Positions 27,658-51,159 of a DNA stretch of 64,000 nt are shown here, in pieces. The position numbers and the translations under genes are program-made. The stretch lies in the NCBI GenBank assembly GCA_015039365.1, contig WION01000158.1:1-64000 (forward strand). The letters are read 5' to 3'. The stretch is from Amanita rubescens. Its lineage: Eukaryota > Basidiomycota > Agaricomycetes > Agaricales > Amanitaceae. Position 1 is the first letter of the stretch. The number at the start of each line of letters is the position of its first letter. The notes below the pieces were generated by a model. That model did not search any database. It saw nothing but the letters and a program-made list of their open reading frames with translations, and had not been told where the DNA came from.

Positions 27658-27972
27658 CTAATGTGACCGTCTAGGAGGGTCACCAAATCGCCTAGGAGGG
27701 TAACCGCCGTCGGCGGAAAAGCCATGGGTGCAAAATGGCTGCGCACAGTTATTTGGTCTAGTCGTGTCATGAAAATGGCCTCTCTGGTGTGCCGGGGGAA
27801 GCATTTGGGCCATCAGTATGACTGACCATATCAGGCAAAATTCAGTTAAACATATATTTTCATTGCGGTACATAGTGACCCAGCATGATCTAGCGTGACC
27901 CACCGGGATCCGGCGTGAATCGGCGTGATCGAGAGTGATCCTGCGTGAACTGAAGTGAACATTTTTTCGCAT
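27658..27972 (-). pseudogene. Relic of the GHFHD/FCTHG secreted-protein family
   Basis: The minus-strand frame reads RGHFHDTTRPNNCAQPFCTH then GGYPPRR, which matches the central part of the protein at 50367-50996 (LGHFHDGVRPSNCERGFCTH, GGHPPRD). The N-terminal signal peptide and FVGYHG repeats are not in frame here. The region downstream (27890-27957) has the same kind of GTGATC/CGGCGTGA short repeats that lie next to the intact gene. Confidence 0.6.
27819..27890. repeat. Dispersed repeat shared with 63937-64000
   Basis: The segment around CCATATCAGGCAAAATTCAG, then TTTTCATTGCGGTACAT and GTGACCCAGCAT, recurs at the right edge of the window with about 85-90% identity by eye. On the minus strand both give YRNE/HRNE..CLTEFCLIW-type frames. 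Confidence 0.7.
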
Positions 27973-28420
27973 GATTAACCAGAAAGAAAACCCCGCAGGT
28001 CATTTCCACCATGCCCAACTCGTGCACGCTGGTCCACTCCGGCGCTATGCATACCGAGAAATAGTTGTACATGCGCATGCCTTGCAGGCCAGCTTCCGAC
28101 TCTAGCATAACTTAATCTGTAGACTGTGCATCAGGCAACGTAACAACACCCGGCCCAAAATCCGCGGCCCGCGACCGCAGCAGGTACAACGTCTAGCGCT
28201 GGTAATGATGCTAAAGAGCCGCTGATGAAGGCCGCTGGGGGTGATGTCGAAGTGACTCAGTGATAGCAGGCCGAAGTTGCCCAGGTAAATCAGAGGACCC
28301 TTTGTACTAGTACTAGTACCACCGGCAATTGACTCAGAAACAGAGTTATATTAAAAACTAAACATGTACAACGATAAAACGATGCTAGAAAGAAGCTCAG
28401 CATTGTACCGTCGCGTGGAG

Positions 28421-30164: not shown

Positions 30165-32241
30165 TCAGTCTTCAAGATACATGGGTACGGTTGCTGCGCG
30201 GCCAAAAAAACGGAAGAAGGACTGGGTGTAGAAATGTGCTACGGCTTCCTCGTAGACCATCCCTTCAACCACTGGAGCATCTTCTGTCAGCACCTCCAAG
30301 CGGCCAATCGGATGAACCTCATAACCATCCCATTCTTTCATGACCGCCCGCAACGCATTGAGATACGGTATTCGATCTCGAATTGTTGGTGACGCCAAAC
30401 CGCGCCGGGCATGTTGACGGTCGACGAATGCGAGATGACGAGGATCGGCCGGGCCAAATGGAAAGCAAGCCATGATTAACCGTTGGCGAGACAGAGGAGA
30501 TAGCAACTGCATATTGTAGGCAGTATTCTCCAGTCCCCGAGCGGCTAGTGCCTTCTTGTCCAACATGACCAAATCAAATCTGAAAGACATTTCTGCAAGT
30601 TCCCATAACACCCCCTGCGCGTCACGTATCGAATATTCGCCGACTTCCACCTCGTGAATCTTGGACAATCCCACTCCCAAATCCAAAGCATCTTGAGACA
30701 AGAGATCGGTTATGGAGGCGCGCACAGACCCTCTCTTCGTTTTGTCATTGGGTTCACGTCCTGCGAGGAGGATGCGCCACTGTTCGTTGGATAACAGGGA
30801 TACGCTACCCAGGTCGGAGCTCATGCGATTGACAACGACAGGTTGCAAAATTTCCCAAACGGTCAGAAACTTGTTGCGTCGACGAGCATTATCACCGGAA
30901 CAGAAAATGCCCGGTTCGGGGAATGCATATTTCCCGTCATTGGAGCTTAACTTTTCAAGAGAGTAAAGACATTGACGCCTTTGGTCTACCGCGCGCAATG
31001 CGGCTCTCCATGAATCTAGGCAAGGAGGCATGTAGAGGCTATTTACGAGGTCGAATTTGTCTCGCCCACCAGTATTCCCACCCGACGGTTTCTTATCTGA
31101 TTGTAGAAGTCAGTTTACGTACATCATGATTAAAAATCCAACATACATGGTTGAAAGGAAGTAGTGTGGTTGCGAGTAGAGCCCTCTCGCGATCGACCAG
31201 CCTGGGAAATCATCTGAGAGAAATTATGAGGGGATATGCCTCTTGGTAGTACTCCACAGAACGGGTCCGCGTAACCCATGAACTTGAGCGAGTAATTACA
31301 GATAGTCATATACCGATTGTCGTTGGAATCGCCCTGGTAGATGCGAGGAGCATATGTGGGATGATCTTCGACCACCAACATATCTTGAGGCTTGACAATT
31401 GTACCGATAGAGAGGATGTTTTCCTTATCAAATGTACGTACTTCGCGTACGACCCAGTATGGTATCCCCGCCGAGAAGAGTCGTTGAGCACTATTAGCCG
31501 TATGAACAAAACAACCAACGACGTCCGCAATCTGGGTTTCAGGAGGAGCCCGGCCTTCCATGGATGGAAGATATTTATCCACGTACTCCATCAGAGCATA
31601 TAACTCCAACCATAATCGCTGCGCCAGTCGTAGACAGATCACTGCCCCTCGGTAGCCCACCGGAACCGCACGCAACCTAGATAAGGCACGCTCCAGATTT
31701 GTTGATAATGCTACAACCTCTGGATGTGAATCCAGCGTTTTGTTATTCGCACGGCGGCGAGCCAACTCCTCCAATAGCCAATTATTGCTCTTGCGTAATG
31801 CCTCAAGCAATGATCCGGACCATTTGCCTAACCCAATAATATCATTCTGAATTCGTTCAAAGTCATGTATCTGAGGATTTTCCCAGATGACAGAATGTGG
31901 ATTGCCCTGCTTCTTTTTGGGTATGCAGCACAAATGCGGAAACCTACGTGAAAATGGCTGCGGCCATTGCGTATGGTCGTCTGGTCCAAAGCGGCCATCG
32001 AAGCGTACGTAAACGTTGCATCAGGTACCAGGAGGCAACGCTATGTAATCGCAGTTAGGTGACAAGATGAACCATCCAGGTCGCTCAGGGTGAAGAACAG
32101 CAACACGACCGTTGAATGCCCCTAATGGTTCTAAAAAACATTTAGCAGAGAATACATGAACGTCGATTCGAAAGGCATACTGTTGGTATTGCGATTACGA
32201 AGAAGGTCCTGCTCGATGTTTGACGCGCTTGTTCGATCCAT
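30165..32241 (-). pseudogene. Uncharacterised fungal protein gene with one in-frame TGA
   Basis: Three exons join in phase: 32241-32181 (MDRTSASNIEQDLLRNRNTN), 32130-31147 and 31096-30165, with GT-AG introns of 50 nt each. The protein would be about 650 aa, has no signal or membrane segment, and shows conserved-looking blocks (LHPERPGWFILSP, VYVRFDGRFGPDDHTQWPQP, FVHTANSAQRLFSAGIPYWV, and FFRFFGRAATVPMYLED at the end). I recognise the style of a lineage-expanded Agaricomycete family without known function. One TGA (32021-32023) interrupts exon 2, probably a former Trp codon. Everything else is open, so it is either a very young pseudogene or the TGA is hidden by an intron I cannot place. Its start lies about 115 bp from the first subterminal repeat of the integrase element. 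Confidence 0.6.
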
Positions 32242-32355: not shown

Positions 32356-32475
32356 GGGTGACACGAGGTCTAACACTCCGGAGTAACCAAATGTCTAGCC
32401 CCGAAAGTCGGTTTAAGCAAATTTGGGCGGGCAACTCGAGGTCTAACCCACGGGAGTGACAATTGTCTAGCTCAA
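32356..32475 (+). repeat. Subterminal repeats R1 and R2 (left side of integrase element)
   Basis: R1 (32356-32400) reads GGGTGACACGAGGTCTAAC then GGAGTAACCAAATGTCTAG. R2 (32430-32475) reads GGCAACTCGAGGTCTAACCC then GGGAGTGACAATTGTCTAG and CTCAA. The same ~46-bp motif is found inverted at 45.9-46.3 kb and direct at 44.9-45.5 kb. Confidence 0.8.
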
Positions 32476-33107
32476 TACTGAGAGGTTCCAATAACAGCAG
32501 CAGGATCTAGAGTTGGGAGAGCGAGAGCGAGAGAGACGAGCCCTGAAGCCCAATTTGAAATAATGAACTTCGCGTAATGCTCCAGCTGAACCAAATATAT
32601 GCAAAGCATGCAATGACATGTGATTCCGTTGCTGAGACGTTCTTTTACAACATATCTACCGCCTATCTTTGTGAGAATGAAAGTTCTAGGGAATCTACTA
32701 TATAATGATTTTGTTCAACTGTTTGTGTCAGTCGCAATTACGTTCTCTCAGACATAATCCATAGTATGTACTAGCTTTATCTAATGGAAATGTGAGCAGC
32801 ACGTTTGGCGAAACAAAATATTGATGGCTGGTACCTTCATCTATCCTTGACGTTGCTGGACTAAGGTACGACATAGCTCCAACCCTCTATTCCAGATGAG
32901 CATGCGTTCCGGCATGCTTCGAAAGTGGTTTGTGCCAAACTCATGCGCAATGGTTGCGTCAAGCCATTCTTTCTCTTCCGCGGAAAGAGAGCAACCTGGA
33001 GGCTCGCAGGTTACCTCGTGAAGCTCGCCGGGGCGATTATCAATTTGAAAAGGCCCCTGATCTTGACCGCCTTGTGCCAAATCACGGGCAACTTCATCTT
33101 CGAGATC

Positions 33108-33112
33108 CTCCC
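33108..33112. repeat. Target-site duplication CTCCC (left)
   Basis: CTCCC directly precedes the TG of the left LTR and is repeated at 40950-40954 directly after the CA of the right LTR. Confidence 0.95.
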
Positions 33113-33598
33113 TGACGAAGATACGCCCAGCAGCGCAGCGTCTAAGTGTTAAAGTGAATACTTACTTAGAGTGGAGTGTAGAGTGGCGGTGACGACCTCA
33201 AACGATAACTCACTATCCTATGGATATAGGATGTGGTGGTAAGAGGAGAAGGAAGGTTCTTATTTGTACCTACATACAGGTAGTCTTATATACTACCAGT
33301 ATCCTAATAAGTACAATGTATAGTAAATAGAGGAAGAGCTGTGCATGACGTATGTTATGACGTCTAGCGCAGCTATGACGCGTCTACCGCAGTAATGGGA
33401 TGACGCAAGCGACTATAGGATATTCCAGTATCCTATGTATGTATATGTACATGTGTATATGTATGTGAATACATATACGCATGTATGTCCATCTAATCTG
33501 TATATCCTAATCTATAGGATAAGATATGATGTATTATCTTATATGAGATAAGATAAGATATACGTTATCTTATATGATTAGATAAGATAACTTTAACA
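33113..33598 (-). repeat. LTR (3' LTR of the element)
   Basis: 486 bp, starting TGACGAAGATACGCC and ending AACTTTAACA on the plus strand. It matches 40464-40949 base for base as far as I can read. Its inner half is rich in GATAAGATA/TATCTTAT palindromes and TGTATATG/CATATACG alternation. Confidence 0.95.
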
Positions 33599-33609
33599 CA
33601 CCCCCTCGC
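33599..33609 (-). other. Polypurine tract
   Basis: On the minus strand GCGAGGGGGTG directly precedes the TGTTAAAG that opens the 3' LTR. This fits plus-strand priming and fixes the element's orientation. Confidence 0.75.
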
Positions 33610-36600
33610 TAAGTTATCCAGGAATATATGAAATATTTTTATACGAGTCACCGGAATTACAAGACTTTTATAAAGTCTTCACGGAAGATCTCTCGTTTCG
33701 TGTACAAGTACGGGGATCCAGACTATATGCTGCTTTCACCTTAATCCCTTGTATTTATATATTTCTTTAATATTCCTATAATGCTTGTTGTATACGTTAT
33801 ACAATATTTATCATTGTTTAATCCTAAGGATATAGGATATGACTTTGTCGAAAAGCCAATACAATGATGTATATTGTTTGAATCGATTTATCAAAAATCG
33901 AGTTTCCTGTCATATTGACAATATCCATTATAAAGGCACCCCCAGGCTTCAAGCCTTACAAAGTGTGTGAAATCATATTTGTTGAGAAGGGGCTTGTTCT
34001 ACTGCCTTCGCTGTCTCTGATATGATTTATTACTTTGTTTAATAAAGGATAAGAATATATCCTTAAGTGCTAAATGAATATTTTTGGCAGGTAAACGATA
34101 ACGTTTAACAACTTGCATAAATATCAAGCTATGTAAATAGCAAGATATATGACGATGATTCTTTTGTGTGAAAAGAATCCTCTGATGGATATGCGAGTGT
34201 GTATATGTCGCATTGTCAAGTAAAAACTTGACGTGTCTTCCTAAATACACTATTTAGACGAGTATAGTATCTCTACAAGGGGAGCTTCCTCCCTTGCAAA
34301 TACTCTCTGCTCGTATGTGTGACGAGTGCAATAATCATTCCTTGTTTCTTTTACAAGTTCTGATTATGTACGCTGACTCGTGTATTCTCCTATTATATCT
34401 AAAGGCGTCCAACGCCTTATGTGGTGTAAAGGTGACTAGCACCTTTAATCGTAAAGGAGTATATATTCTCTTTGCACAGCAATACGAGAATATGATGTGG
34501 CGTGTTCACTTGATCAACAAGTTGCACGCTTGACGATTTTACTTGTGATGACAAGTATGATCGTATTGTGGTCTAATATAATTGCTTGTCCTTGTAAAAA
34601 CAAGTATGACGACAAGCAAATTATGTTTATAGACGATTGCCCAGATAATTCTTATACATCATGGTTTACATCTCTGTTATATCGATAAAAACTCCTTTTT
34701 AAATTTCGATAAAGAGTTCAACCATGTGTCTTAAAGAATATCTATGTTGTTCAACAGAGCGAAGTCCTTGGGCCTTTAAAGGACTTATGCTTTCAAAGCA
34801 TTTGACCCGTCTGTTATAGAACAACGAATGTTCCCTTCTATAGATATGTGTGTATATCTTGTCTTTTGTAAATGATGATAATCCGTCTGGTATGAATGAT
34901 TTGCATATCATTAAATCCTTTATAATCACTTTCATAAAGGATTGTATTTTGGTTGTGATTCCATATATCCCTATTTTGACAGGAACGCACAATACCAGCG
35001 GGGAGACGAATCTCCTGATTTCATAATAACGAAATGAACTTCATCATTATCCAATTCCTGAGCATGTGTGACGATTATTAAACTTGAGCTTATATTTGAT
35101 AAGCTTTCTTGTTTTAATCGTGTAAGTGAATCCAGATACATTTTACTGGATGCTCATACAGATATGATTCCCTACTTGACTTATATGTGGTGGTCATCCA
35201 CATTTGCAATATATCTTGGTAATCATTATAAAAGGGTTTTACCATATATGATCAGCAGTAAGAACTGCTATAAGTGCCCAGCGCATTTTATCTTAATATA
35301 AAGATAATTTGCTGGCAGTATTGTGTCTGCCGTACCCGACGATCATTAATGATGTAATCCTTTGTTAGACACTGTGTACAAGATGTTTGATCTTGTTTTA
35401 TATATATGCTATATTTATTGTACCTTGTGTATGGATACAAGATACGAATATGACTTTAAAGGTCTACACCCACAGGGATACGACCGTTGTCATGACAAGT
35501 TTAATTGAGGATCCGAGAATGATCGACATTCCGCATTCACTCATACTTGTATATTTGGGGATTTGCGCAAGGCAGGCGCCACCCCATTATAGCATATTGA
35601 ATCTATTTTTGATATAGATTCTTACAACGAAGAGGATATACTTGTATTGACGACAAGTATAATTATAAGTGTTTGTATAGAAGAACAAACACTTATATAA
35701 TATCTCGTATGAACGAGATTTGACCTCTAAGTCATTTAAGTGTCAATGACTATCTTTTTGGACGATATATTCAACATGAACACGTCTACTGGGAAGGTAT
35801 AACTGCGACGTTATCCGATATAGGTTTCCTTTTCAGTACAGCCTATATTAATCCTTAAACAAGGATTATTCCTCTGTTACGTGTAGTCCGTTGGCAAGTA
35901 ATGTCCTCTTAACTCTGTTAATTCTTGTTCTACCCTGGTTCTATTTTATCTTTATGCATTATCCAGATGCAATAAGAGTATAGAACTCGAACGGGGAAGT
36001 CTCGTCGAATGATTTTGAATATCCTTTTTGATGTTCAATGTATAATGACAACATTTAAACTGAAATTCGTTATTTATAAAGATCCTCCTTATGAGTTGGC
36101 CGAAGCTCATTCATATACGGTATATTTTGGCAATGACAATATGTCCTTGCTAATACCGCCAGAAAGATCATAACGATATCTCAAAGTCATAGCAGTATTG
36201 GGTCTGCTGTGCCCCTGAACGACCCACAATATGTAAATATTGTTACCCATTCAAAGGTTGACCTGTACAAGTTTATTTTCGTAGCAGTATTGGGTCTGCT
36301 GTATCCCCAAGTGATCGACAATATATAAATATTGCTAACCAACCTGAAAACCGTCAAAACTTGTGTAAGGAAATTCTCCATTGTTCGGATGAAACCAAGA
36401 ACTAGAGTTAATTAAAGAGGGTGTTGGATTATACGCAAGGTGTTCCTATCTTTAGCTTTTGAGGGCTAAGATCTGTGCAAGGAACTAAATGTATTCCAAT
36501 AATCCAACCGTAATATCGTATTAACGATATTTGGGAATCTGTATTTTGAAAGGAAGTGGCGCAAGATTGACATAACTATTTCTTTTGTTTTTAAGCTACC

Positions 36601-38284
36601 ATTGATTCTTATAAAGAAATACTGTTATATGTATGGAGAGGATATGTGAGGTTATTTGCGATAAGCCATAAGACAAGCTTATTTGAGATATGCATTAATC
36701 CTGGCATTCCATATAATACACGTTTCTGACTAGGATATTTGTCAGAAGTGTAATGTCATATTGTAAAGACGAGACGCTTTCAAGACCGTATAAGTTTCAA
36801 CGGCAAGGAGCCTTCTCTATACAATAGACGGGGATAAAACTCCAATACATATGTTTGTTCGTGTTCAGGCATCTGTATATTATCGAGGGAGCTTCCTCCT
36901 CTAATACAGTGTGATGACCATTATAATTATGGGCCTATTTCTAATACGCAACCATAATGTACAATATGGGCCTATATCTAATACTGCATCCATGATTGTT
37001 TGTATATACAAGTTATATCGAATACTTGTTTTGATTGGTCATATACAAGTCGTAATGGGCTTGTTTATTTGCAATGATTCCCCCTCAATCAAGACAGGGA
37101 TTGATATTGCGTAATATAGCCTGATAGAATCATGTATATTTTTGACATGATCTATTTATCACATATAGATTGATGTGATATGAACAGTATTCTTATTTTA
37201 ACATGTGATGATTTATGAAAATCATCTTCATGTATTAAAGAAATCAATGATTTCGTCAATTTATCATCTTTATAAAAAGATGTAACCGTTCTTGTGTTTC
37301 ACACAATACATTATCCAACATAACGACGTTGGTCAACGTATATGGTCATGGTACATGTATTTCGCTCAAGGATGATTTGGTTCCTATAGATAATCATTTA
37401 GAATTATAATCCACAATTCTTAAAGCTATAAGAATTATTTCGAGGTATTTTAGTTACGTCTGTCCTGTTATTGGAAAACCTATTTTGATATGAAGAGGGG
37501 ATGAGCGTTAAGACGCCGCCGAACAATTCAATTTATAGGTTGAGTACAAAGATACTCTGGACGTTTATAGATGCTTATATAAATAAGCATAGGAGTCTAT
37601 TCTTATACAAGTGATCGAAATTCCCTTGTATGCGACAGTATTCTGGCAATGATGATAAATCCTTGCTAACGTCGTTAAAGAATGACGGTGTTTATACCAA
37701 GAAATTTGTTATCTCCAACAGATAATGTTTAGCAGCTTGAAACTGCTATTGCGACTACAGTGTTATGAGACACTTTCAAGACCGTGCTATTTCAACGGCA
37801 AGGAGCCTTCTCAAATGTAGGAAACCATATTATGAGACGTTTTCAAAACCGTGTGAGTTTCAACGGCAAGGAACCTTTCTCAAAGGTAACACATTACTGT
37901 TATCTGCAAATGGATTATAGCCGTTTATAGGCTATAGACATCGGTTTGCATATGTGGAGAGCTTTTAAAGATATTGTTTTTATAGTGTAGACACTATAGA
38001 TATTTCTGAATGACGAAGATAATATGTGTTGATGCTTGTATATGATGACAAGCATGATGATCTTTCTTCAAGTGATCGAAATTCCCTTGAACGCGGTATA
38101 TTATGGCAATGATGATAATCCTTGCTTAATACCACCAGAAAGACCTTTATTTATAAGTGATCGGGTTTGCAAGGCATATGCCTACACGATTTCCTTATTT
38201 TGAATATAAATTGTATGACAAGTAATCGGATTTATAAGGAGTGATCCTTCACGATACTCTTGTGTTGACGACAATTTATATTTA
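33610..38284. repeat. Hairpin-dense non-coding interior of the retrotransposon
   Basis: About 4.7 kb of AT-rich sequence with no pol gene contains closely packed short perfect inverted repeats with small loops. Examples (coordinates): 33661-33679 (8-bp stem), 33788-33804 (7), 34157-34179 (9), 34215-34232 (7), 34540-34557 (7), 35600-35620 (7), 35665-35696 (12), 35702-35719 (7), 37571-37590 (8), 37981-37998 (8). Some stems occur in multi-part cassettes that recur: GAGACGCTTTCAAGACCGT with CAACGGCAAGGAGCCTTCTC (36771, 37767, 37833), GCAGTATTGGGTCTGCTG followed by ACAATAT-ATATTGT (36188, 36284), and GGCAATGA with TCCTTGCTAA (36133, 37653, 38110). Confidence 0.85.
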
Positions 38285-39433
38285 TTACATATATATCTTC
38301 CAGAAATTATCTAAGTCTATGCTATATTGTTCTTCTACCCATTGATCATAGCTATTCATAGCCATGAAATTTCCATAATGACGCTCGAAATCTTCATGAG
38401 CATCATAAAATTCCTCCTGGGAATTTGTTATTCTTGTATCCAACGAGTCTGTCAAAGGCTCGTGTGATAAAGGTGAAGGCGTGGAGACATTTGATTTACA
38501 TGATTTAAATGAATCATGTGTGGAGTCTGATTCCTGATCAGATTCGGGCTGTTTGACTAATAGTGGAGATCCTCCCCTGATGTAATCAGGCTTGCTACTA
38601 TTTTTAAAGTCTTCCCAGCGCAAATGTGTAGGCTGTGGATGCGGCGAGCATCTGCAGCGGCCTTTGCCTTTGTTTGTTAAGGAGGCATTAGCTAAACAAT
38701 TTTCCGTATGCAAGTTAGGATCTTGCGTTGACGGAGGTGATTGTTTTATAGCCTGATGCCGTAACGACCATGATGAACGAATTTCGCTAGCAAGTTGCTG
38801 GACTCTGATTGGTCCAACTTGTGTGGCAGTGTTTCCTGAACGAACTGCCATAGGGCTAGAGTAATTCATATTGATAGCGGTAACGGATGATGTAGCCGCT
38901 GTTTGGTTGATCCATTTTAATGGAACAGCCCTGATGGTCGTAAGTGCTTTATTTAGATGAGCAGCCGGGAATTGATGTCCCTGTGCTGCTATGTGTCTAT
39001 AACGAGTGATGATTTTGTTTATAGATCGATCATGATCTATTTTGTCCAGTGATCCGTCGAGGATTGCTGGCGAATCATCTTTGTATCGTTCTTGCAAGAA
39101 CATCCATAGGAGTCTTGCGTTGTAAACGTGTTGATAAAGCTCAAAGATTGTAAAGGACAATCTGAGCTTAATGGCGTGTAACGCCTTCTCGTTTTGTACA
39201 AGCTCATCAGCTTGTATGATGATTGCTGCCTTATTTGTGGCAGTGATCGGCGCAATTACTGCTTTGAGATGAGCAGGGATTGCATTTGGAATAACGGGAC
39301 ACATGAATACCATCAGATTTGAGATCTGAAAGTATGCCGTTATTTGTCGTGCCCAGGCACGATAATTGTTTCCTTGTAATTCGTTGACAAGGGAACATAA
39401 AGCGCTGTCTTCTTCTTTAGTAAAAGAAGACAT
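38285..39433 (-). CDS. Copia-type Gag, 382 aa
   Basis: An uninterrupted ORF starts at the ATG at 39433 and ends TAA-side at 38285. The N-terminal half follows the copia Gag pattern: LQGNNYRAWARQITAYFQIS (the L-x-G-x-N-Y-x-x-W-A motif), a run of alternating helices, ELYQHVYNARLLWMFLQERY and IITRYRHIAAQG. No CCHC knuckle is visible; the C-terminal third is Ser/Pro-rich and acidic (ESDQESDSTHDSFKSC). Gag would form the virus-like particle around the element's RNA. The open frame in an otherwise non-coding element suggests it is kept by selection or that the copy is very young. Confidence 0.85.
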   Translation of the reverse strand: MSSFTKEEDSALCSLVNELQGNNYRAWARQITAYFQISNLMVFMCPVIPNAIPAHLKAVIAPITATNKAAIIIQADELVQNEKALHAIKLRLSFTIFELYQHVYNARLLWMFLQERYKDDSPAILDGSLDKIDHDRSINKIITRYRHIAAQGHQFPAAHLNKALTTIRAVPLKWINQTAATSSVTAINMNYSSPMAVRSGNTATQVGPIRVQQLASEIRSSWSLRHQAIKQSPPSTQDPNLHTENCLANASLTNKGKGRCRCSPHPQPTHLRWEDFKNSSKPDYIRGGSPLLVKQPESDQESDSTHDSFKSCKSNVSTPSPLSHEPLTDSLDTRITNSQEEFYDAHEDFERHYGNFMAMNSYDQWVEEQYSIDLDNFWKIYM

Positions 39434-40446
39434 GACAAGAATGTTGATAAAGGTTTATATTTATATAAAACCTTATGGAAATGTCGGTTACAAGGTTTGA
39501 TAGCCTTGTATTGGAGTGGGTGAGCGAGAAATGTTATTTCTTGCTTCTTGATGATAGAACGATTGATTGAGATGAAATCAATTGATCGTTTGATGGATTA
39601 TTTATAAATTCAATGATTTATATCTATTTAAGGATTTTATTAATGAAGGTGTCATTACATAAACGACAACGACTTCATAGGCGAGGGTGTCATAACGAAT
39701 ATGACAACAACCTTGCGTGCAGCATTATGAGCTACAGCCAAGCATGATAATGCCTAGCACCAGGATCGATCCGAGGAACATGTACCAGACTTGTGTGCCT
39801 GACCTGTAAACGAGTATGACATGCATAAGGTCCGCGGACTGCAGTGCGCCTGCGGCAACTGCCTGGTCCCAAGAGGTACCAGTTGTCTTTGGAAAATGAA
39901 AGGTGTCCGGTCCATAAACCGTCCGTGACCACCTTTATGAGCACAACAAGTAGCGAATATGAAAGTATACGTGGATGCCTTTTGAGCAGAGCCAACGGCT
40001 AATCTAAGGCGCTCTCTAGGAGTGGACGCCTAATAGTCTGCGTGTATGGTCCACAATGGGACCCCAGCACGACCTTTATACTTTATGAATGCTACTATGG
40101 GCCATACGTTCTACATATGGTAACTAAAGGCTCTAAGGGCCTTATGATGGGATAGCGTGCTGTAATACCCCAATCACATCATGGCGCGCAAGCGGCGAAA
40201 ACACCATGGGGGTCAAGGTTGCCATGCCAGCCTTGAGAAACATAGGTGGTACCCTTATCCCTGGGTGCAAGGAGATCCCCCTAAAGCCCTAGGGTCCGGG
40301 CGCATGTCATGAGCTCGTATGTCAGGTACAAGAACTTAGTTAAATTGACGGATGCCACTCAGGTCTCCGACCCGCACAATACTATACCTGTTCACACATC
40401 TTGCATGGTAACATGCCTGGAGGCGATGGTGATGCAAGCAATACCA
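39434..40446 (-). other. Leader between primer site and Gag
   Basis: About 1 kb on the minus strand between the primer-binding site and the Gag start. It is more GC-rich than the hairpin interior and contains no ORF with a recognisable domain. It probably includes the packaging signal and 5' UTR of the element RNA. Confidence 0.5.
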
Positions 40447-40463
40447 TGTCGGGGCCCATAACC
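40447..40463 (-). other. Primer-binding site, copia half-tRNA type
   Basis: Immediately inside the 5' LTR (…TTCGTCA) the minus strand reads GGTTATGGGCCCCGACA. GGTTATGGGCCC is complementary to the anticodon region of initiator tRNA-Met, the site used by Drosophila copia with a cleaved 5' half of the tRNA. It is not complementary to a tRNA 3' end (no TGG start). Confidence 0.75.
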
Positions 40464-40949
40464 TGACGAAGATACGCCCAGCAGCGCAGCGTCTAAGTGT
40501 TAAAGTGAATACTTACTTAGAGTGGAGTGTAGAGTGGCGGTGACGACCTCAAACGATAACTCACTATCCTATGGATATAGGATGTGGTGGTAAGAGGAGA
40601 AGGAAGGTTCTTATTTGTACCTACATACAGGTAGTCTTATATACTACCAGTATCCTAATAAGTACAATGTATAGTAAATAGAGGAAGAGCTGTGCATGAC
40701 GTATGTTATGACGTCTAGCGCAGCTATGACGCGTCTACCGCAGTAATGGGATGACGCAAGCGACTATAGGATATTCCAGTATCCTATGTATGTATATGTA
40801 CATGTGTATATGTATGTGAATACATATACGCATGTATGTCCATCTAATCTGTATATCCTAATCTATAGGATAAGATATGATGTATTATCTTATATGAGAT
40901 AAGATAAGATATACGTTATCTTATATGATTAGATAAGATAACTTTAACA
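40464..40949 (-). repeat. LTR (5' LTR of the element)
   Basis: 486 bp, same length and, by eye, same sequence as 33113-33598. In the element's direction it starts TGTTAAAG and ends CTTCGTCA, followed directly by the primer-binding site. Confidence 0.95.
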
Positions 40950-40954
40950 CTCCC
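40950..40954. repeat. Target-site duplication CTCCC (right)
   Basis: Directly follows the terminal CA of the right LTR and equals 33108-33112. Five bp is the usual size for copia and Ty1 integrases. Confidence 0.95.
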
Positions 40955-42462
40955 ATGCCACCCCGTAGTTCGGCAAATCGTCTACAACCTCTTCTTGTTG
41001 TTCAATCCATTCGCGGACGCCCGGCGTTTCACGCTCCACCATACCCACCAAGAACATCTCAATCGGCGACTGGTTCCTCTCCCCTCTCAATTGCATCTTG
41101 TGATGATTCCAACCCTTGACCCATTCCTGAAGTTCGCTGTTCAATTCTTCCAAGAAAAGATGAAGAAGAAGCCACGTATGGTCACCGTCTTCAGCGTTCA
41201 TGCCGTGGTGAGTTTCCAGGTCCTGAAAGAACTTTTTCCATTTTTGAGAAAGATCGTTCACTAGATCCACCCATAGTCGTTCGGATCTTGTATTATGGAC
41301 GGAGCTGGGAGATATTTATCGTCAGATTAGGCACATACACGTCAATGTCACTTACCGGCCCCAAAGATACGAGCCTCTCCCGTTCCCTCTTAGTTCCAAC
41401 ATGCGGTCTGCCACCCTTACGTTCTCAGTACCGTGGTCACCCCGAACCCGACTCGGCAAACCATGTAATCTCACAGCTCGTTCAAATACTTCTAACACGG
41501 TATCTGCCCGATTATTGTCGTTGAACTGTGCAGCTGTAATAAGGCGCGTCTTCCCATCCACGAAAGCGTGGCATACGATTCCCCATCGAATCAACTCTGT
41601 GATCATCTAAGTAATTGAAATGAAGCATGCGCTTGTCTTTTACTTACTGTGGTTCCCGTCGTGATGCCAAAGACTATTAGGAGCTGGCACATAATAAGTT
41701 CGTCTCTCTATCTGTCGTCTTGCGAAGTGTGCAGGTGCGCCATGTACACGAACGTACGACTCCCTTAGCCGCTCCCTGGGAATACGGCAGCCTCTTGCTT
41801 TTAGCAACCCGTCCAACTTTTGTCTCCCAGAGTTCGGAAAGGTTTGCAACACATCCCTGACCAACTCATCCAGCGCATTAGGGTCGTCAGCAATAGCTGA
41901 GTATTCAGGGGTGGACGACGAGGCCCATGCACGAGACACTGTTCCATCAGGGTTCTGAACGGTCTGAAACACAGGTGGAGCTTCATTCCTGAGACCATAT
42001 TCGACCGCTCGCCTTCTGATTGTCCGCGGGCTACACTTCATCACCTGCCCCAATTGATATGGACCCCGAACTTTCAATGCATTCTCCAAGAAATTCCTGT
42101 CGATTTCGACGCGTGGCCGTCCTACCCTGCCTTTCACTCTACATGTAACTTGCAAACCAGGGGCAGGGGGGTCCATTGCCTCGTTCTCTGCAGTGCGAAG
42201 GCACTCTATCATAGTGTTCACAGACTCTTGTAACGATATGAAATCCTGTACTGGCACCTGATTCTGGTACTAGAACGTGTCAGAGCCCTGACATGTAACG
42301 GTTGTTTTGGCTACAGACCTGTCCGGCGACATTGAAGAACTCCAGCACCTCGTTGCGTAGCTGTCGATATCGCATCGCGTCGCCGACGTGTATCTGTAGA
42401 GAAACTCGTACCCTTTCAGCCAAGCGTAAGTACGCCTGCCGCAGGTTTTCTATCTGGTCCAT

Positions 42463-43109
42463 GGGCGTTGCAATCGGGAATAGGAATGGGAAATGCCGCT
42501 TGTGACATGTGCTGCGGATGCAAAACCTTGGAGGCGAAATTTTTCAGCCGGTCCTTCCAATTGTTTCCACCACTTCCTCTCACCCAACCACCCGCCAACT
42601 CCCCTTCTTCTACCACCGTTCTATGACCACCGTAACGCGGGCGGGACGCTGTCGTAGACCCCCGCTCAATAGAGACGAAGCCATGGTGCCGATCATGCAA
42701 AGACGAGGAGAGCGTCAGGCGACAAACACTCGCCCTCCATCCTCCGCAGATTCAACCCTCGACACTGGTAGGTAACTCATTGAGCGTCAGGCGATGAACG
42801 CTCATCCTCCTTCCTCCGTAGATTCCACCCTCGACACTGGTAGGTAACAGATCTACCCGCTCTTGTCCGCAGCATAATCCTACGGTTAGGCAACACGGGG
42901 AACGTCCAGTCAGCGACGTCAACGATGGCGCCAGACGAAGCCAGTAGGTGACTGAAACACATATGCCACTGCTTCTTAGTGTTGTTCTAGATTCAGCTGC
43001 GGACGCTATTGCTGGAGAACCAGAAGCAGGTTGAGATACGTTGATTCTTTTTGTGGGCAGAGAAACTTACCATCTCTGTTGTTAGACGTAATTGACCTCA
43101 CTAGCACCA
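42463..43109. promoter_or_regulatory. Divergent intergenic region between integrase and orphan gene
   Basis: About 650 bp separate the two divergent start codons, so both promoters must lie here. It contains a 72-bp tandem duplication (42710-42781 and 42782-42848, beginning GAGCGTCAGGCGA and ending CTCGACACTGGTAGGTAAC) with about 85% identity. Confidence 0.55.
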
Positions 43110-44599
43110 ATGAACAAGACGGTGTCGACGGAGGTGTGTGATCTTGCAGTCCTCAACACCAACGCTGATCGGTTGCCCGTAGATGTTGCATCTGTGGATG
43201 CGTTCAGGACCTTTGCAAGTAGGACCTTCACACTTTTGTTTACTCATGACCTCAATCCATAACGTTAACGTCAGATTTGGGACCTGAGTTTGAGATGTAT
43301 GCACGCTCGTCGCTTAGCTCGCCGATTACCGTGCCGGAGCAGACCGACGTGCATTTCCAGGACCTAATTGCTGCTGCCAATGCGCAGGGTATCGTCTATA
43401 CCTCGCGTAAAGGTAAAGAAAAAGAAGTACGAGCGATGCCCGCGGTTTCTGCAAATGGGGGAAGTACTGTCTTTACCTCCCATAAAGAAACAAACGGGGA
43501 ACCTCCGTCATCTTCTGGGCATCCCGTATTCGAGGACGCAAATGATAACAAGCTGTCGGTCTTGATGGTCAGCACTCAATGCCCCAGGGGGATGAATAGC
43601 CATACCATGTTCACTGTTATGACCCGTGATACTGGAATCCCGGGGAATCCTGCAAATGTGGTTGATCTGTATGATGCCCTCCGCAGCTCTCAACAACTGG
43701 AGTTCCGGGCTGTGAACTTGGACATCGACGGCATGGACGAATCAGAAATTCAGCTTGGCACCGCTGGCGTCCCTGTATTCATGGATGACCTCGACAATTT
43801 TGGTCGTTCGTGGACAGGTTTTCGAGCCCTGGGTTTCCTCAAAGACTTGGAAATGAATTTCTTGATTAAGCCAGTACGCGACAGCGAGGGCAAGTCCTCA
43901 ATAATGGATCTTTACAACCAGGATCCCACTCTTGACTTGTACATTCTCTATGTTTGGGAAGGGGTGAGTCTAGGAACCGATGATGAGGATGCGTCTTCTA
44001 ATGTCTATTAGAAACCTAACATACCTTCAAGGCCGATAAATTCTTCTACACCCCAGGCCATCGCGACGGTGTCAACTACATCCACAATTGTCGGGTCTCT
44101 CGTCCAGCAGTACTACGATAACTTCCAGAAGCTAGTCCTGAGGAAAAACGGAGAGAACGAAAGCGCATTTGCCCTGTTCATGTTTGTCCGAATTGTAACA
44201 GAGGTGTGCACGGCATTGGGGATCCCGTGCGGACGCCGCGTGGCCATTTTTACGAAATTCCAAGCCGGCAATGAACAAATTTGTATCGCGGACATTGTTG
44301 AGGCGTTCAAAGATGGGACAACGCCATACAGGAGTCCCAATACATTCAAAAACTACCGTGGATTGAAGCTTAATGCAGCGGCTCTGTTGGAATATATGGA
44401 AAGGGAAAGAATGGTTACATCCCCTCGGGATATCCGATATATAAACCGAGCGAAGGAATTGTTGTTAACGCCACTCGACGAAGCTGTCCGCCTGACAGCT
44501 TCTTGGTACGGAAAAATAAAGAATTTCGAATATGAAGTTAAGGAGATGGCGCGTTTATGTAACATGGGGTCCCAGCTGACGCTGGAAGAGGACGATTGA
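43110..44599 (+). CDS. Orphan protein, 446 aa, partner gene of the integrase
   Basis: Three exons join in phase: 43110-43218, 43275-43963 and 44057-44599, with GTAGGA...GTCAG (56 nt) and GTGAGT...CCCCAG (93 nt) introns. Total is 1341 nt. The start is MNKTVSTEVCDLAVLN. The protein has a Lys-rich patch (SRKGKEKEVRA), an acidic middle (LDIDGMDESEIQLG, FMDDLDNFGRSW), a hydrophobic YVWEG junction and a helical C-terminus (SLVQQYYDNFQKLVLRK, FKNYRGLKLNAAALLEYMER) ending in acidic residues. I see no known domain, signal peptide or membrane segment. It lies divergently next to the integrase gene and inside the same set of inverted repeats, so I infer that it is the second protein of that element (DNA-binding or target-choice factor?), without direct proof. 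Confidence 0.7.
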
Positions 44600-44870
44600 T
44601 TGTGTACTTCGTCAGAATGTAAAGTCGCTGCTTACTTCTTGACGCCAATGTATACATTAAGAATTTCGATCATGAAGTCAAGCGGATGGCGCGTTCATGT
44701 AAAATGGGCCCCAGTTGATGCTGGAAGAGGACGATGTCGTCAGCAATTGAGAAAAAGAACGTAAAGTCGCTGCTTACTTGACGCTGCTACCTCAGGAGCG
44801 ATGTTTGCGACAAGCGACAGTTCCAAGTAGAATAACGTTGGCGTGAATGTCAGAGGATCTGGACAAAAGG

Positions 44871-45505
44871 GGCGACACGAGGTCTAACCCATTGGAGAGA
44901 CAATTGTCTATCTCCTTGCATTCCAGGTCTCCTTTGCGAGTTGGACGACATCACAAGGGTTGCTCAACAGAGCTGGTGAGTCATGGTGTCAGGGTCGCCA
45001 CCGTAGACCCCCAGATGCTTCGCTTGTCCTGTAACGTGACGACGCGAGCAAGGGTAACGAGAATAGCCTAACATTCATAGCATCAGTGTTGAACAGTGAT
45101 ATCAAGAGGCATATTGGCTCACCATTGGTGAGGTGGTGATTTTGATGAAGGGCAGCTCGTGGATGAAAGGGCGACACGAGGTCTAACCTTCTGGAGAGAC
45201 AAAGGTCTATCTCCTTGCGCTCCGAGCTCGCGTAACGAGAAAAGCCTAACATTTATAGTGTTAAACGGCGACGGCGTGATGGCAAGAAGAGGTGTGTGGC
45301 TCACGATATAGAAAGAGCGTCAGTGACTGGATGAAAGGGGACACGAGCTCTAACCCTCTGGAGAGACAATGGTCGATCTCCTTGCGTTCCGGGTGACGAC
45401 GCGAGCTCGCGTTAACGAAAGCCTAGTAACAGTCGTAGTGTTGAACGGCGTGACGGCGTGAAAAGGCGACACGAGGTCTAACCATCTGGAGAGACACTGG
45501 TCTAT
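44871..45505 (+). repeat. Array of direct copies F1-F4 of the subterminal motif
   Basis: Copies start at 44871, 45170, 45337 and 45464. Each has GGCGACACGAGGTCTAACC, then GGAGAGACAATGGTCTATC or close. F1 contains the perfect palindrome AGACAATTGTCT. Between them is shared filler (CTCCTTGCGTTCCGGG, GACGCGAGCTC, GTTAACGAGAAAGCCTAACA, GTGTTGAACGGCGTGATGGC), so the whole unit is a tandem repeat of about 120-290 bp. Confidence 0.8.
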
Positions 45506-45639
45506 CTCCTTGCGTTCCGGGTTACGACGCGAGCTCCCGTTAACGAGAAAGCCTAAACAGTCTTAGTGTCGGACGGTGTGATGGCAAGAACAGGCGTATG
45601 GCTCACCATATATAAAGAGCGTGATGGCGGGTAAGGAGC

Positions 45640-45790
45640 GACGGAATGTGAGCGACGGAATGTCTAGCTCATGTTTCATGACGAGGTTCAACTTCCCAAC
45701 TTGGAAACAACCCCAATTGGGCTGTTGTTTCACGACGAAGTTTAACTTCCCAATTGGGAAACAATCCTAATTTGGCCCAAGTCTCACGTA
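45640..45790. repeat. Tandem copies of a CCCAATTGGG-containing unit
   Basis: Two ~65-bp copies contain ACGAGGTTCAACTTCCCAAC and ACGAAGTTTAACTTCCCAAT, followed by GGAAACAA. The second contains the perfect 14-bp palindrome TTCCCAATTGGGAA. Confidence 0.65.
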
Positions 45791-45940
45791 TTCCTACCTC
45801 TTTACTTCTCGCTTTCTCTGTTGCTCTACTTCCTCATTGACACGTTTCCCCAAAAGGTGAGTTTTCTGGAGAAAAAAAGGCCGCGAAAGTCAGCCAACGG
45901 ATGTTTGACACAGATACCAAAGAAACGGCGTGGAACTTTC

Positions 45941-46280
45941 TGAGTTGGACACTTGTCGCTCATGTAGGTTAGACCTCGAGTCGCCTGCTCATTTGCCGTT
46001 TCACTGCTACAATCGCGTTTAAAGGCTACCCTCACCATCTTTCAAACGACCCTACTGCCCCATTGACAGTGCGAAAGAGTGCGTTCTACCGACATGCGGG
46101 CGTCGGCTTTGTATTTTTTGAGTCAGACAGTTGTCGCTCACGTAGGTTAGACCTCGAGTCGCCTGCTCCATGTGCAAGTGTCAAGGGAGGGGCGTACTAG
46201 TGCGGATTTTTTGAGTTAGACAGTTGTCGCTCACGTAGGTTAGACCTCGAGTCGCCTGCTCATGTGCAAGTGTCAAGGCT
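45941..46280 (-). repeat. Inverted copies A-C of the subterminal motif (right side)
   Basis: Three copies on the minus strand: A at 45941-45990, B at 46115-46190, C at 46208-46280. On the minus strand each reads GGCGACTCGAGGTCTAACCT then GTGAGCGACAACTGTCTAAC (A differs slightly). B and C are near-identical over about 75 bp, including a flanking TTGACACTTGCACATG. They are the reverse complement of R2 at 32430-32475. Confidence 0.82.
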
Positions 46281-46427: not shown

Positions 46428-49400
46428 TCAAGCTCTGTTAAAATCATCTCCAAGAATCATTTGCGCGTGCCACCACATGTCAAACTCCGTACAGACTTCC
46501 TTTCCTTTAGCATCGTGACGGTATAATAGGCCGGGTTGGACCAGAAGACGGGCTATTTCTTTGTTGATGTTGAGATAGATCGTATTTGTGCAAACGGAAA
46601 ACTTGATGGTGTCTTCATCACGGACAAGTGGCCGGTAAGCCAAGCGGATCTATTATGTTGTGAATATGGTTGACGTGAAGAACATTCTTTCCCATACATT
46701 GATAAACTCATCCTGCAAATTTAGTTTCAATGAGCACCCCGTAACCACCTGATGAAAGAGCCTTGCTCGTAGACCACGGTCGAGTCGTGCTTGCGCGTAT
46801 TGCTGCGAAGTTACAAGGTTATCTTTCGTCTCACGAGGGTGCCCGATTCCTTCGATCCAACGCGTAAACCGCATGATGAACAGGCAGCAAAGGTTGTAAG
46901 TTGCGGGATCGTCCACATCTGTAGCATGCCAACGAATTAGCGGAATGACGTCTCCGGGGATTTCAATGCGACGATTATATAGAGTGGCGAGGAAACGTTG
47001 GAGGTACCGAGGCTCGTCCCATCGCGCAAGTGGAAACTAGTCAACGTGAGATAGATCAACTTGGTTTGGACTATGAACTTACCTTTAGAAAGGGACCGGA
47101 TGCGATGGAATTGAAACCCTCTTTGAACGCTTGGAAATTTGTATGCTTCCAAGGGTCACGATCACCGATGAGGTAGTACGCAAGCATTTGCTTCTGCATT
47201 TTCTGGTGTGCCTCAACCGGGCGTGATTGCGTCAAATGGTTTGCCTGAAAGACATCAGGCGTGTTCTGGTTTAGCGGTCAATGGTTGCACTTACAGGGAG
47301 TTCAATATCCGAGGCCAGGGAATGTAACCAATCTTTTGACATGTCGGTCGCGTCGATCTTGCCAACAGGTAAGTTAATAATGTGTTCTACCTTGTTCAAA
47401 AGGTCTTCATCTGGGATCATAGCCCTCGCAAACTCCACATCAAATTCAAATTCTTCCAACTTAGTTAAGGTGGCGGCGAGAATGACAAAGGGAGAGATGG
47501 GATCGGGACCAATAGCGAGGTGTGTAGTGAAAAGCGCAGCAATGTGCCCTTCAACCTTGTAGTCTATAGTTTGATTAACTATATCAAGGTCCGGGTTCCG
47601 AGATAAGTGAAGCTTATGGTATCCCTTGTTCACACTGGGGATCCACCTGTGGGATTTTGTAGATTGCTGTAGCGCTGATTGAAATACAGTACGGAGAAGG
47701 CCGTTTCCGGAAGTGTCAATTCCAAGGTCAGTTACGGAGATCTCAGTTCTTAAGAGGATTTAGAGCATGAAAGCGGATAGACGCGAGAAGGCTCTTACAC
47801 GATGAAAGTTGGGAACGGTTTAAATAAGGAATAAAGGGTTTTGATATGGTTAGAAGTCACGCCTAATTCATTGTCTTTTTCTGGTACGGGTTCTTGTTTG
47901 GCAAGTGCGTAGACTGCGCTAATAAGAAATGTCGCAAGATCAGTGGCTTTTGGCCCCTTTATGTGCGGTGTCGGTGCCCTTGTTACTTCCCGTTTTATCT
48001 GAAGGGAGTCTTGCCACTGACGGATGACCGAATCGGGTAGGCGATCATCGAGTGCGGGCCGCAATAAAATAGGTGGAGGGGTGGGAGAACGGCTATCGTG
48101 GCGTGAGCATTCAGCAGGTGGACTGTCGGGTGTAAAGAGTGGTTCGGTTACGACAGCCTGAGATGACGAGGGGACACGAGATTCAGAAAGAAATGATGGG
48201 AGGGGAGGTTGAGATTGACCAGGCCCGCTATCCAAACGAACGCGGCGAACGGGCCGAGGATGAACAATCGGAGGTAAGTAGCGCTTGCGGGTAACAGGAG
48301 ATGGTTGAAACTAACAAACAGTCAGGAGAAAATGGAGGTGCCGACACACGGTCAAACTTACTTCATCGTCATCGCCGCTAGCCCCTCCGTCATTAATTTG
48401 ACACTCAACTATGCAGGAATTTGCTTGGTAGAGATCGTTCTCGCCTCCAAACCTGAGCCAGTCATGGAAAGGAGATACAACCCGCCATGGCCAACAGGGA
48501 TGGTGGCTGAGATCACTTGATTCTGGTAGTGGCCCTCGGAGGTGGTTTTTACGGGGAGCTGATGGGGGTAGGTTGATTCAGCCTTGGATGACGGTAGTAA
48601 AATGGAATAACTGACCGACAAAAAACACACCGTAGCCTTCCTCGATTGGATCGGGCCATGCTAGCCCCTGCAAATAATTAAACGTAAAAGCATACTGGGG
48701 AGGCGTCGACGGGGTATAATTGCTGATTCCCGTTTTGTTGGTACGCGCGGCTTGGCAGACGGACCATGAAAGGTTGAAGTAGGGATGGTCCTGCAAAGCA
48801 GGAGGTTGTTCGATAGTAATATTATGCGCCTGGAGATGGTGAGTAATAGTTTCATCAAGTACTTCCCATATAGTTTCTGACTGTTCTGGTTCCGTAAGTG
48901 GGATGACAAGGTTCCACTTCGCAAGCTGCGGAAGCAACTGATCACGTTGGATGTCAGTAAGGCGGAACATATTCGGAGGACAGGGAGTCTCAGAGTTGGT
49001 GCGGTTCTAAACGGTTAAATTCGTAAGTACATCTGATCTAAAGAATTAACAATTGATTGAATACCGCGAAAGGTATTATTGCACATTTAAGTTTCGACGG
49101 CAAGGGCATCGCCATTGTCCTTTTGCCCTTTCTTGAAGGGATGGTGGTGGGTGGGCCGGGTGTTGGACCCTGGCTTGGATTGTATCCAAAACCACTCGTG
49201 CCGGCGCGGCGGGTCCTAGTGGCAGAAACTTGACGCTGCTGAGATGCAGAAAGTGATGATGCAACAGGGGCGACAAATGCAGGGCTGTACGTCCCAACTG
49301 TGCGTACCGCGGCGAGTGGTGTTGGGATTCCAGTCGTGACACCTGTGGGTAGCGCAGGTAGAGGCGTCTCAATTTGGGCTGGAGTGAGATGGCCAGGCGC

Positions 49401-49956
49401 GGCGTGGGTATTTGATATTCGGGGTGGAGGAGCCACACTTAGAGATAAACAAAAGGTGAGTCTGCTGTCGTGAAAGAAAGAGAATTATGGACTGACTCTG
49501 GTATGTCCCGAGTATGCTGAAGATAAGGTGCGCCACAAGCGCAAAGAGTTTGCAAGGTCATCGTTGTGGACATTGATGACTGTAAGTGTTGATTATTCAG
49601 ATGAAAACTTGTGTTGTATTGATCGTTACCAAAGGAATGAAGCCTCCACATCCAGTCGCTTGACAGTTACCACGAGCTACGGCTGACACACTCGATGCAT
49701 TAGGAGCCAATCGAATCGCCGGTTGGGTGATATAATGCTGCCAGTAAGGGTGGCCGCAACCGCAAAGCTCCGTAGCGTTTATTGGTTCATGACGTTGAAC
49801 AAAGAACTAAGCAAGATAAGGTGTGCTCATAGACTGGGAAGCATAGAAATCACTTACTTGTCCAAAGGTGGCACCCGCGCACACTGTCGTGCATTGTGTG
49901 CAACGATCACGAGGGATGAGAGGAAACAGCTCAGCGACAGAGGTGGTTATGGGCAT
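46428..49956 (-). CDS. Large multi-exon protein with N-terminal Cys/His knuckles
   Basis: About ten exons can be chained with short GT-AG introns from MPITTSVAELF (ATG at 49956) to ILGDDFNRA (stop 46428). The N-terminus has four Cys/His clusters: CTQCTTVC, CGCGHPYWQHY, CQATGCGGF and CACGAPYLQH, suggesting zinc binding. A Pro/Ser/Thr-rich linker follows (about 49420-49090). Conserved-looking globular blocks follow: LRFGGENDLYQANSCIVECQ, MLAYYLIGDRDPWKHTNFQA, MRFTRWIEGIGHP and TNTIYLNINKEIA. I estimate roughly 950-1000 aa. No active-site motif is recognised. The frames are open in every exon I checked, so it is likely expressed. It is outside the inverted repeats of the integrase element, on the right. 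Exact borders of the middle introns are approximate. Confidence 0.65.
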
Positions 49957-50283: not shown

Positions 50284-50366
50284 GGCATGATAGATCACGA
50301 CGGATCACGCCGATTCACGCTCGATCGCGGCGGATCACGGCGGATCACGGTAGATCACAATGATAA
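50284..50366. repeat. GATCACG-type short repeat array
   Basis: Eight to nine degenerate 9-10 bp units (GATCACGACG, GATCACGCCG, ATTCACGCTC, GATCGCGGCG, GATCACGGCG...) lie just 3' of the secreted-protein gene. A similar but more degraded array lies at 27890-27957, next to the relic of the same family. Confidence 0.75.
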
Positions 50367-50996
50367 TTAAATGTAATTAGATATTGTCCGATACGGACCG
50401 TCATACATCAGCCCTTGATTGAGTTGGTCGACACTATGAGCTTGGGGACCGTAACCAACAGGGATGCCATGATAACCAACGAAACGAGGATCACGCCATC
50501 CTCTATCTCTAGGGGCGTCGATAGTGCCGGCGAAGCTATGAATACTACTGGGAACGTAAGGTGTATTGTGGCCACCACGACCACTGGAAGTGCCGGGAGT
50601 ACCGTGACCGCCACGGCCACTGGAGGTGCTGGGAGTACTGTGATCATTATAACGGTAAGGGCTACCCTGAAGATAATCCCTAGGAGGGTGACCACCGTGG
50701 GCAGTCTCGCCGTGGGTGCAAAACCCCCTCTCACAGTTGCTTGGTCTGACACCATCGTGGAAATGGCCTAGTTGTTGTACCACGTCATGCCCTCCGGCCA
50801 GTCGTTCGTGATTAATTTCGTCAACACGTTGAGCATTACCGCCATAACCAACGGGAACACCATGATAACCAACGAAATCAGGATTGAGACGGCCAGTGCC
50901 GTAGCGACCATAATGGTTAGGTGGCGGCGTGGGGAGAGCCGTGATGAAAGGGCTGAAGAGAAGAATTGTGGCGATGGCTAGCGAGAGGCGTTGCAT
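50367..50996 (-). CDS. Small secreted protein with duplicated FVGYHG repeat, 209 aa
   Basis: The ATG at 50996 opens a signal peptide (MQRLSLAIATILLFSPFITA, then LPTPPP). The mature protein has a first repeat (NPDFVGYHGVPVGYGGNAQR), a central Cys pair in LGHFHDGVRPSNCERGFCTH with GGHPPRD, a Ser/Gly/Thr-rich stretch with three HGTPGTSSGRGG-like units, and a second copy of the repeat (DPRFVGYHGIPVGYGPQAHS) near the C-terminus. An in-frame upstream extension to 51125 exists but would bury the signal peptide, so I prefer 50996. Function unknown; secretion and low complexity suit an effector or cell-wall protein. A relic of the family is at 27658-27972. Confidence 0.7.
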   Translation of the reverse strand: MQRLSLAIATILLFSPFITALPTPPPNHYGRYGTGRLNPDFVGYHGVPVGYGGNAQRVDEINHERLAGGHDVVQQLGHFHDGVRPSNCERGFCTHGETAHGGHPPRDYLQGSPYRYNDHSTPSTSSGRGGHGTPGTSSGRGGHNTPYVPSSIHSFAGTIDAPRDRGWRDPRFVGYHGIPVGYGPQAHSVDQLNQGLMYDGPYRTISNYI

Positions 50997-51159
50997 GTTT
51001 GAAAAAGACCTGCTTTTGGGGAATGCGGTGGTTGGCACAGAAAGGAGGGCGATGTAAGAAGAGACCAGCTCTGAGGAAAAAACGGGAGCATTTCGATGAG
51101 CCTTTTTATACGAATGACTCTCCACTTAATTGCGCTGAATTTTCCAAAATGTGACCCAT

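Follow-up and report, generated by a model that had tools for sequence, protein, structure and literature searches.

The stretch of DNA analysed here, referred to below as the window, comprises 64,000 nucleotides of the Amanita rubescens assembly GCA_015039365.1 (contig WION01000158.1, positions 1-64,000, forward strand). It contains four genes, arranged in the order gene 1 (minus strand), integrase (minus), orphan gene (plus) and gene 3 (minus), together with clusters of a 44-46-bp motif, a nested LTR retroelement and a pair of TIRs. Contigs of the A. rubescens genome are designated by C-numbers, the window copy being that of C66. The features are located as follows:

27811 to 27816, no strand: target-site duplication CATCAG, left copy, from junction reading; single copy in empty sites
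27817 to 50405, no strand: whole element, 22,589 bp in the window, with sharp ends common to C27, C103, C201, C223 and C771, and with empty sites
27817 to 27841, plus: left TIR, TATGACTGACCATATCAGGCAAAAT, matching the right end at 19 of 25 positions
27886 to 27951, plus: left subterminal array of ~10-bp units (GTGATCNNGC-like), from local alignment of the two ends
30165 to 32241, minus: gene 1, 658 aa in copy C27 (P0005), no known domain
32357 to 32400, plus: motif, left copy 1 (all motif copies from the search with the 19-bp half)
32430 to 32475, plus: motif, left copy 2 (R2)
32844 to 42462, minus: integrase/transposase gene, 540 aa in 4 exons as read from copy C103, rva_4, DD34E
33113 to 40949, no strand: nested LTR retroelement, ~486-bp LTRs with 1 mismatch in 492 aligned bases
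42623 to 44599, plus: orphan gene; exons of the 446-aa reading at 43110-43218, 43275-43963 and 44057-44599
44871 to 44914, plus: motif, right direct copy 1
45170 to 45213, plus: motif, right direct copy 2
45337 to 45380, plus: motif, right direct copy 3
45465 to 45508, plus: motif, right direct copy 4
45942 to 45985, minus: motif, right inverted copy 1
46120 to 46163, minus: motif, right inverted copy 2
46213 to 46256, minus: motif, right inverted copy 3, the outermost, compared with R2
46428 to 49956, minus: gene 3, 1002 aa (P0036), no known domain
50292 to 50357, minus: right subterminal array of like ~10-bp units, inverted, from local alignment of the two ends
50381 to 50405, minus: right TIR, reading TATGACGGTCCGTATCGGACAATAT inward
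50406 to 50411, no strand: target-site duplication CATCAG, right copy, from junction reading; single copy in empty sites

The DDE integrase gene that had been recognised in the original prediction was borne out by the Pfam search, in which its 540-aa product matched rva_4 with an E value of 3.9e-62. The catalytic triad is formed by D250, D307 and E342, with 34 residues between the last two, and no H2C2 zinc family was among the Pfam matches to this protein at E<=1. Sequence searches of the PDB gave nothing significant for the integrase, gene 1, the orphan or gene 3. In the window, the last ~90 codons of the integrase are cut off by the nested retroelement, which is flanked by the 5-bp duplication CTCCC (33108-33112 and 40950-40954) and was present only in this copy among the copies examined. 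By its near-identical LTRs the retroelement is young, and its ORF at 38285-39433 is copia-gag-like by eye. Gene 1, for its part, has a premature stop near 32021-32023 in the window. Since the retroelement splits the integrase and gene 1 contains this stop, the window copy looks disabled. The stop-bearing string of gene 1 was found in none of the six other family loci tested; in stop counts for gene 1, C66 and the diverged C784 copy had one each, and C27, C103, C201, C223 and C771 had none. One stop was counted in the last integrase exon of the C223 copy.

The divergently transcribed 446-aa gene was present as predicted; its annotated relatives are 549 and 604 aa long (P0002 and P0003), and likeness to them suggests a start ~490 bp further upstream, from 42623. 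This upstream model includes a VIDLT stretch (43088-43102), in a frame different from that of the 43110 start, which we take to be SUMO-interaction-like. Gene 3 encodes two CxCGxPYxQH modules near the N-terminus, followed by a long C-terminal region with an LFHQVVTG...FSVCTNT stretch reminiscent of a HECT C-lobe. The HECT idea was discarded as a likeness at motif level only, unsupported by Pfam, profile comparison or structure: gene 3 had no HECT match in Pfam at E<=5, none of the 31 HECT matches in the genome (29 candidates) lay at the element, and a comparison of gene 3 with the HECT profile, of low power, was not significant. Pfam searches with gene 1, the orphan and gene 3 gave no significant match, and an alpha-kinase or TET identity of the orphan was rejected, there being no Pfam match. 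The AlphaFold models of the orphan and gene 3 were unusable (pLDDT of 31 and 28, respectively). Relatives of gene 1 occurred at many other loci (best 67 of 148 candidates scored), and the gene is not exclusive to the element; a plasmid search with it gave no match. When compared with diverged relatives, dN/dS values were 0.08-0.13 for the integrase, 0.20 for gene 1, 0.27-0.39 for the orphan and 0.16-0.50 for parts of gene 3 (11 comparisons, all <=0.50, as point estimates with approximate exon limits).

Alignment of copies, which had been proposed together with the original prediction as a way of finding common ends and flanking duplications, revealed that identity between copies in the same genome extends far past the 46-bp motifs. 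A search with flanks placed common sharp breaks at window positions 27817 and 50405. The end bases were the same in six copies (C66, C27, C103, C201, C223 and C771), all of which read TATGAC...GTCATA at their junctions. This end was also observed at the left end of the C784 copy and at the right end of a second C66 copy; the right end of the former and the left end of the latter were not confirmable as termini. Once the nested retroelement is subtracted, the element has a length of 14,747 bp. Pairwise identity among the five non-window copies was 99.9-100% over 7.4-9.9 kb, and the element has apparently been mobile recently. The TIRs are imperfect and span ~25 bp, and the inverted ~10-bp arrays just inside each of them are, as read from the alignment of the two ends, the true subterminal repeats, in place of the 46-bp motifs to which this role had been assigned. 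The latter are internal, with the true termini ~4.5 kb to the left and ~4.1 kb to the right of the motif bracket. Similarly, the two-gene element of ~6 kb that had been envisaged gives way to one of four genes and 14.7 kb, of which the integrase/orphan pair is the core.

The 19-bp half of the motif, GGCGACNCGAGGTCTAACC, was found nine times in the window at <=3 mismatches, versus 0.01 occurrences expected in shuffles. The two direct copies on the left and the three inverted ones on the right (ending at 45985, 46163 and 46256) were where they had been predicted, and four direct copies on the right had gone unlisted. R2 and the outermost right copy, for which an inverted match at ~38 of 46 positions had been given, matched at 40 of 46, while the best match of R2 elsewhere was 26 of 46 (in the 41 kb of the window outside the element). 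The window copy, the second C66 copy and C76 together supplied 14 motif copies with the usual 10-base gap, and the consensus of these reads GGCGAC(A/T)CGAGGTCTAACC, five mostly variable bases, and then GAGNGACAAN(T/G)GTCTANCTC. The 12-bp half GACAAYTGTCTA alone was unspecific, with 39 matches in the genome versus 117 for the reversed control; the long motif was specific, and the genome search for further copies, as suggested at the outset, yielded 70 matches versus 0 in the reversed control. Element copies or fragments accounted for 67 of these. The remaining three, on C268, C354 and C646, were accompanied by a gene 1 relative and by no rva_4 match. The motif was absent from 117.7 kb of 12 control loci and from the rest of the window. 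A search for motif variants was not clean, giving 60 matches, mostly copies already found, versus 7 in the control.

At C268:10462, C354:206927 and C646:18968 the motif has the variant form CGAAGTCTAACC...GAGNGACG. Its distance from the gene 1 relative is ~7 kb at C268 and ~0.6 kb, on the upstream side, at C354 and C646. Possibly these loci represent another transposon group that has gene 1 and the motif in common with this element.

Within the family, loci with the four genes in conserved order have motifs in the same two gaps. C76, whose integrase differs at dS ~1, keeps the motif in the two corresponding gaps, where the copies at 14342 and 21236 form an inverted pair; the motif was absent from 8 kb of the C146 relative at the same threshold. 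That the motif persists in the corresponding gaps of C76 speaks, on sequence grounds, for its being bound by a protein of the element, perhaps the one encoded by gene 1. The 44-46-bp clusters flanking the integrase/orphan pair would then be internal binding sites, with the gene 1 product or the N-terminal region of the integrase as the most likely candidate binder, and they would act on expression or on transpososome assembly, not as ends.

As a tentative alternative, the motifs could serve the genes of the element as cis-regulatory or RNA-level sequences. Gene 1 starts 0.1-0.2 kb downstream of the left pair, and the right direct and inverted copies occupy the interval towards which the orphan and gene 3 converge with their 3' ends, an arrangement that would allow transcripts to pair; the conservation of the motif in C76 and a consensus stretch, GAGNGACAA..TTGTC, that is partly palindromic by eye would also suit such a role. 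However, no Rfam family reaches its gathering score, and the right clusters are not near any gene start. Bolder, and rather improbable, is the proposal of a new helper system, in which gene 1 would read the motifs as assembly or regulatory sites while the orphan and gene 3 would act on host ubiquitin/SUMO pathways, protecting or timing transposition. If true, such a system would be new for DNA transposons.

The preferred reading is that of internal binding sites within a single four-gene transposon. The distribution of the genes was compared across the genome. The orphan was found at at least 25 loci; at 23 of them, all but C113 and C774, a divergent integrase match lay no more than ~10 kb away on that contig. 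The integrase was found at at least 38 places, 15 of them without an orphan match, several of these being short fragments; all these counts, obtained from genome searches for relatives, are lower bounds. The expected joint travel of the two genes was seen from the side of the orphan and did not extend to every integrase. Among the matches listed, the four-gene set occurred in one order at 10 loci (C27, C66, C103, C201, C223, C771, C784, the second C66 copy, C76, and C223 at 1.15 Mb). By likeness, six of these are near-identical, and C76 and C223 at 1.15 Mb are more distant. The C784 copy is 95-98% identical and has an insertion between the orphan and the integrase. C146 carries the integrase, the orphan and gene 3.

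The second C66 copy (C66:66895-80198) lies ~16 kb downstream in like orientation, is ~80-88% identical and has a different left 2 kb. A distant integrase/orphan pair was observed in seven copies, on C35, C42, C49, C135, C277, C318 and C719, with 38-57% identity in the integrase and 25% in the orphan, and with no gene 1 or gene 3 among the matches listed.

These data bear on a composite origin, in which the integrase/orphan pair and its motif bracket would be an inner mobile cassette captured by an outer element, the transposase of the latter being either gene 1 or gene 3. The motif clusters enclose precisely this pair, and inverted copies are found both in the window family and in C76; gene 1 relatives are widespread, and those at C268, C354 and C646 coincide with the motif variant and no rva_4; and distant pairs (C12/C495, the C35 group and the C9 group) lack gene 1 and gene 3 among the matches listed, the best 67 of 148 candidates having been scored for gene 1 and the best 46 of 127 for gene 3. 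We nevertheless regard this origin as very unlikely, given that the outer unit has TA..TA ends and 6-bp duplications of the kind that go with the integrase class, that the motifs form multi-copy clusters in both orientations instead of single ends, that no short duplication was seen by eye beside the outermost motif copies, that no gene 1/gene 3 pair lacking the integrase and orphan in between was among the matches listed, and that the gene order is kept at 10 loci.

Matching 6-bp duplications flanked two of the six assembled copies, CATCAG in the window and CAAAGG in C223. A third, TAACGG, is deduced from two separate flanks, the left one taken from C462, a contig that ends within the element, and the right one being that common to C103, C201 and C771. 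The 6-bp flanks of the other four copies (C27, C103, C201 and C771) are mismatched as assembled, and these copies may be assembly joins or chimeras, or else recombinants. C103, C201 and C771 have one right flank in common and three different left flanks, and C27 shares its left flank with C223 and its right one with C348. When the joined flanks were used in searches, the insertion site of the window copy was found uninterrupted at C188 and C57, and that of TAACGG at C311. The C223 joint lies in a dispersed repeat, found at 19 places with 98-100% identity and with 25-29 bp of its left side. The case for transposition holds because the empty sites of the window and TAACGG insertions carry it. 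Counting the diverged copies, seven left and seven right flanks were distinct. Although the flanks held in common and the four copies without matching 6-bp flanks could be taken as signs of segmental or assembly duplication, we disfavour this explanation as scarcely credible in view of the matching duplications of the window and C223 copies, the uninterrupted sites of the window and TAACGG insertions and the number of distinct flanks.

An ORF on the minus strand (27658-27999 and 50367-51125) encodes a secreted-looking protein whose repeated HFHD...C...FCTHG blocks lie to the left and right of the insertion. The element sits within or beside this ORF, and the site is uninterrupted on C57 and C188.

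An integrase-type transposase, as in the Amanita element, is also a feature of Ginger1, Ginger2 and Polinton/Maverick, and the last of these has in addition genes for a protein-primed polymerase, a packaging ATPase and capsids. No Pfam match to the Polinton polymerase or capsid was obtained in 10 frames and 8 proteins, which is a weak test for capsids, and no packaging ATPase gene was recognised. In PMC10045372, duplications of 6 bp are given for Polinton, a likeness to the Amanita element, and of 4-5 bp for Ginger, in contrast to the 6 bp observed here. The same source treats IS3EU and GingerRoot together and describes TA..TA ends and usually 6-bp duplications for IS3EU families. TA..TA termini, a 6-bp duplication and an integrase-like DDE transposase without an N-terminal HHCC zinc motif are all found in the Amanita element. 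Unlike IS3EU/GingerRoot, this element has four genes, three of them without a known domain, a length of 14.7 kb, internal 44-46-bp motif clusters and subterminal ~10-bp arrays.

A further comparison is with the IS3EU elements of rusts, which, according to PMC12730594, carry TET/JBP and alpha-kinase genes, end in TAYGG..CCRTA and have TIRs of over 30 bp. The Amanita element resembles them in being fungal, in its extra genes, in having a gene opposite to the transposase and in its 6-bp duplications, and differs from that description in its TATGAC ends and its shorter, imperfect TIR of ~25 bp. No Pfam match to TET/JBP or alpha-kinase was detected in the orphan and gene 1 relatives (P0002, P0003, P0005-P0007 and P0022) or in gene 3, and the layout of the TET-containing rust elements, with TET/JBP between transposase and alpha-kinase, was not seen in this test at the Pfam level only.

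Because of its TA..TA ends, its 6-bp duplications and the type of its integrase, we place the element, with its four genes and 14.7 kb, among the cut-and-paste DNA transposons of the IS3EU/GingerRoot type, at a probability of roughly 0.87, the assignment being made by features (ends, duplication and domain). Copies in which all genes are open are probably autonomous. The common ends, TIRs, duplications and empty sites sustain the integrase-type DNA transposon of the original prediction, and a type that could not be named there can now be called IS3EU-like. The integrase would bind the TIR and the ~10-bp subterminal arrays, excise the element and join it to a target whose strands are offset by 6 bp. 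The other three genes (gene 1, the orphan and gene 3) would provide helper functions, kept because elements carrying them persist.

The class looks known, and the gene cargo and the inner repeat clusters look unusual. A literature search returned no publication recognisably on this element, which is not proof of its being unpublished. The analysis describes almost in full, from a single genome, a multi-gene IS3EU-type element that has apparently moved recently, down to its exact ends, its empty sites and its diverged relatives. The roles of the three domain-less accessory genes and of the internal motif clusters thereby become directly testable, and the element shows that, in a mushroom, the conserved cargo of a DDE transposon can amount to 14.7 kb.
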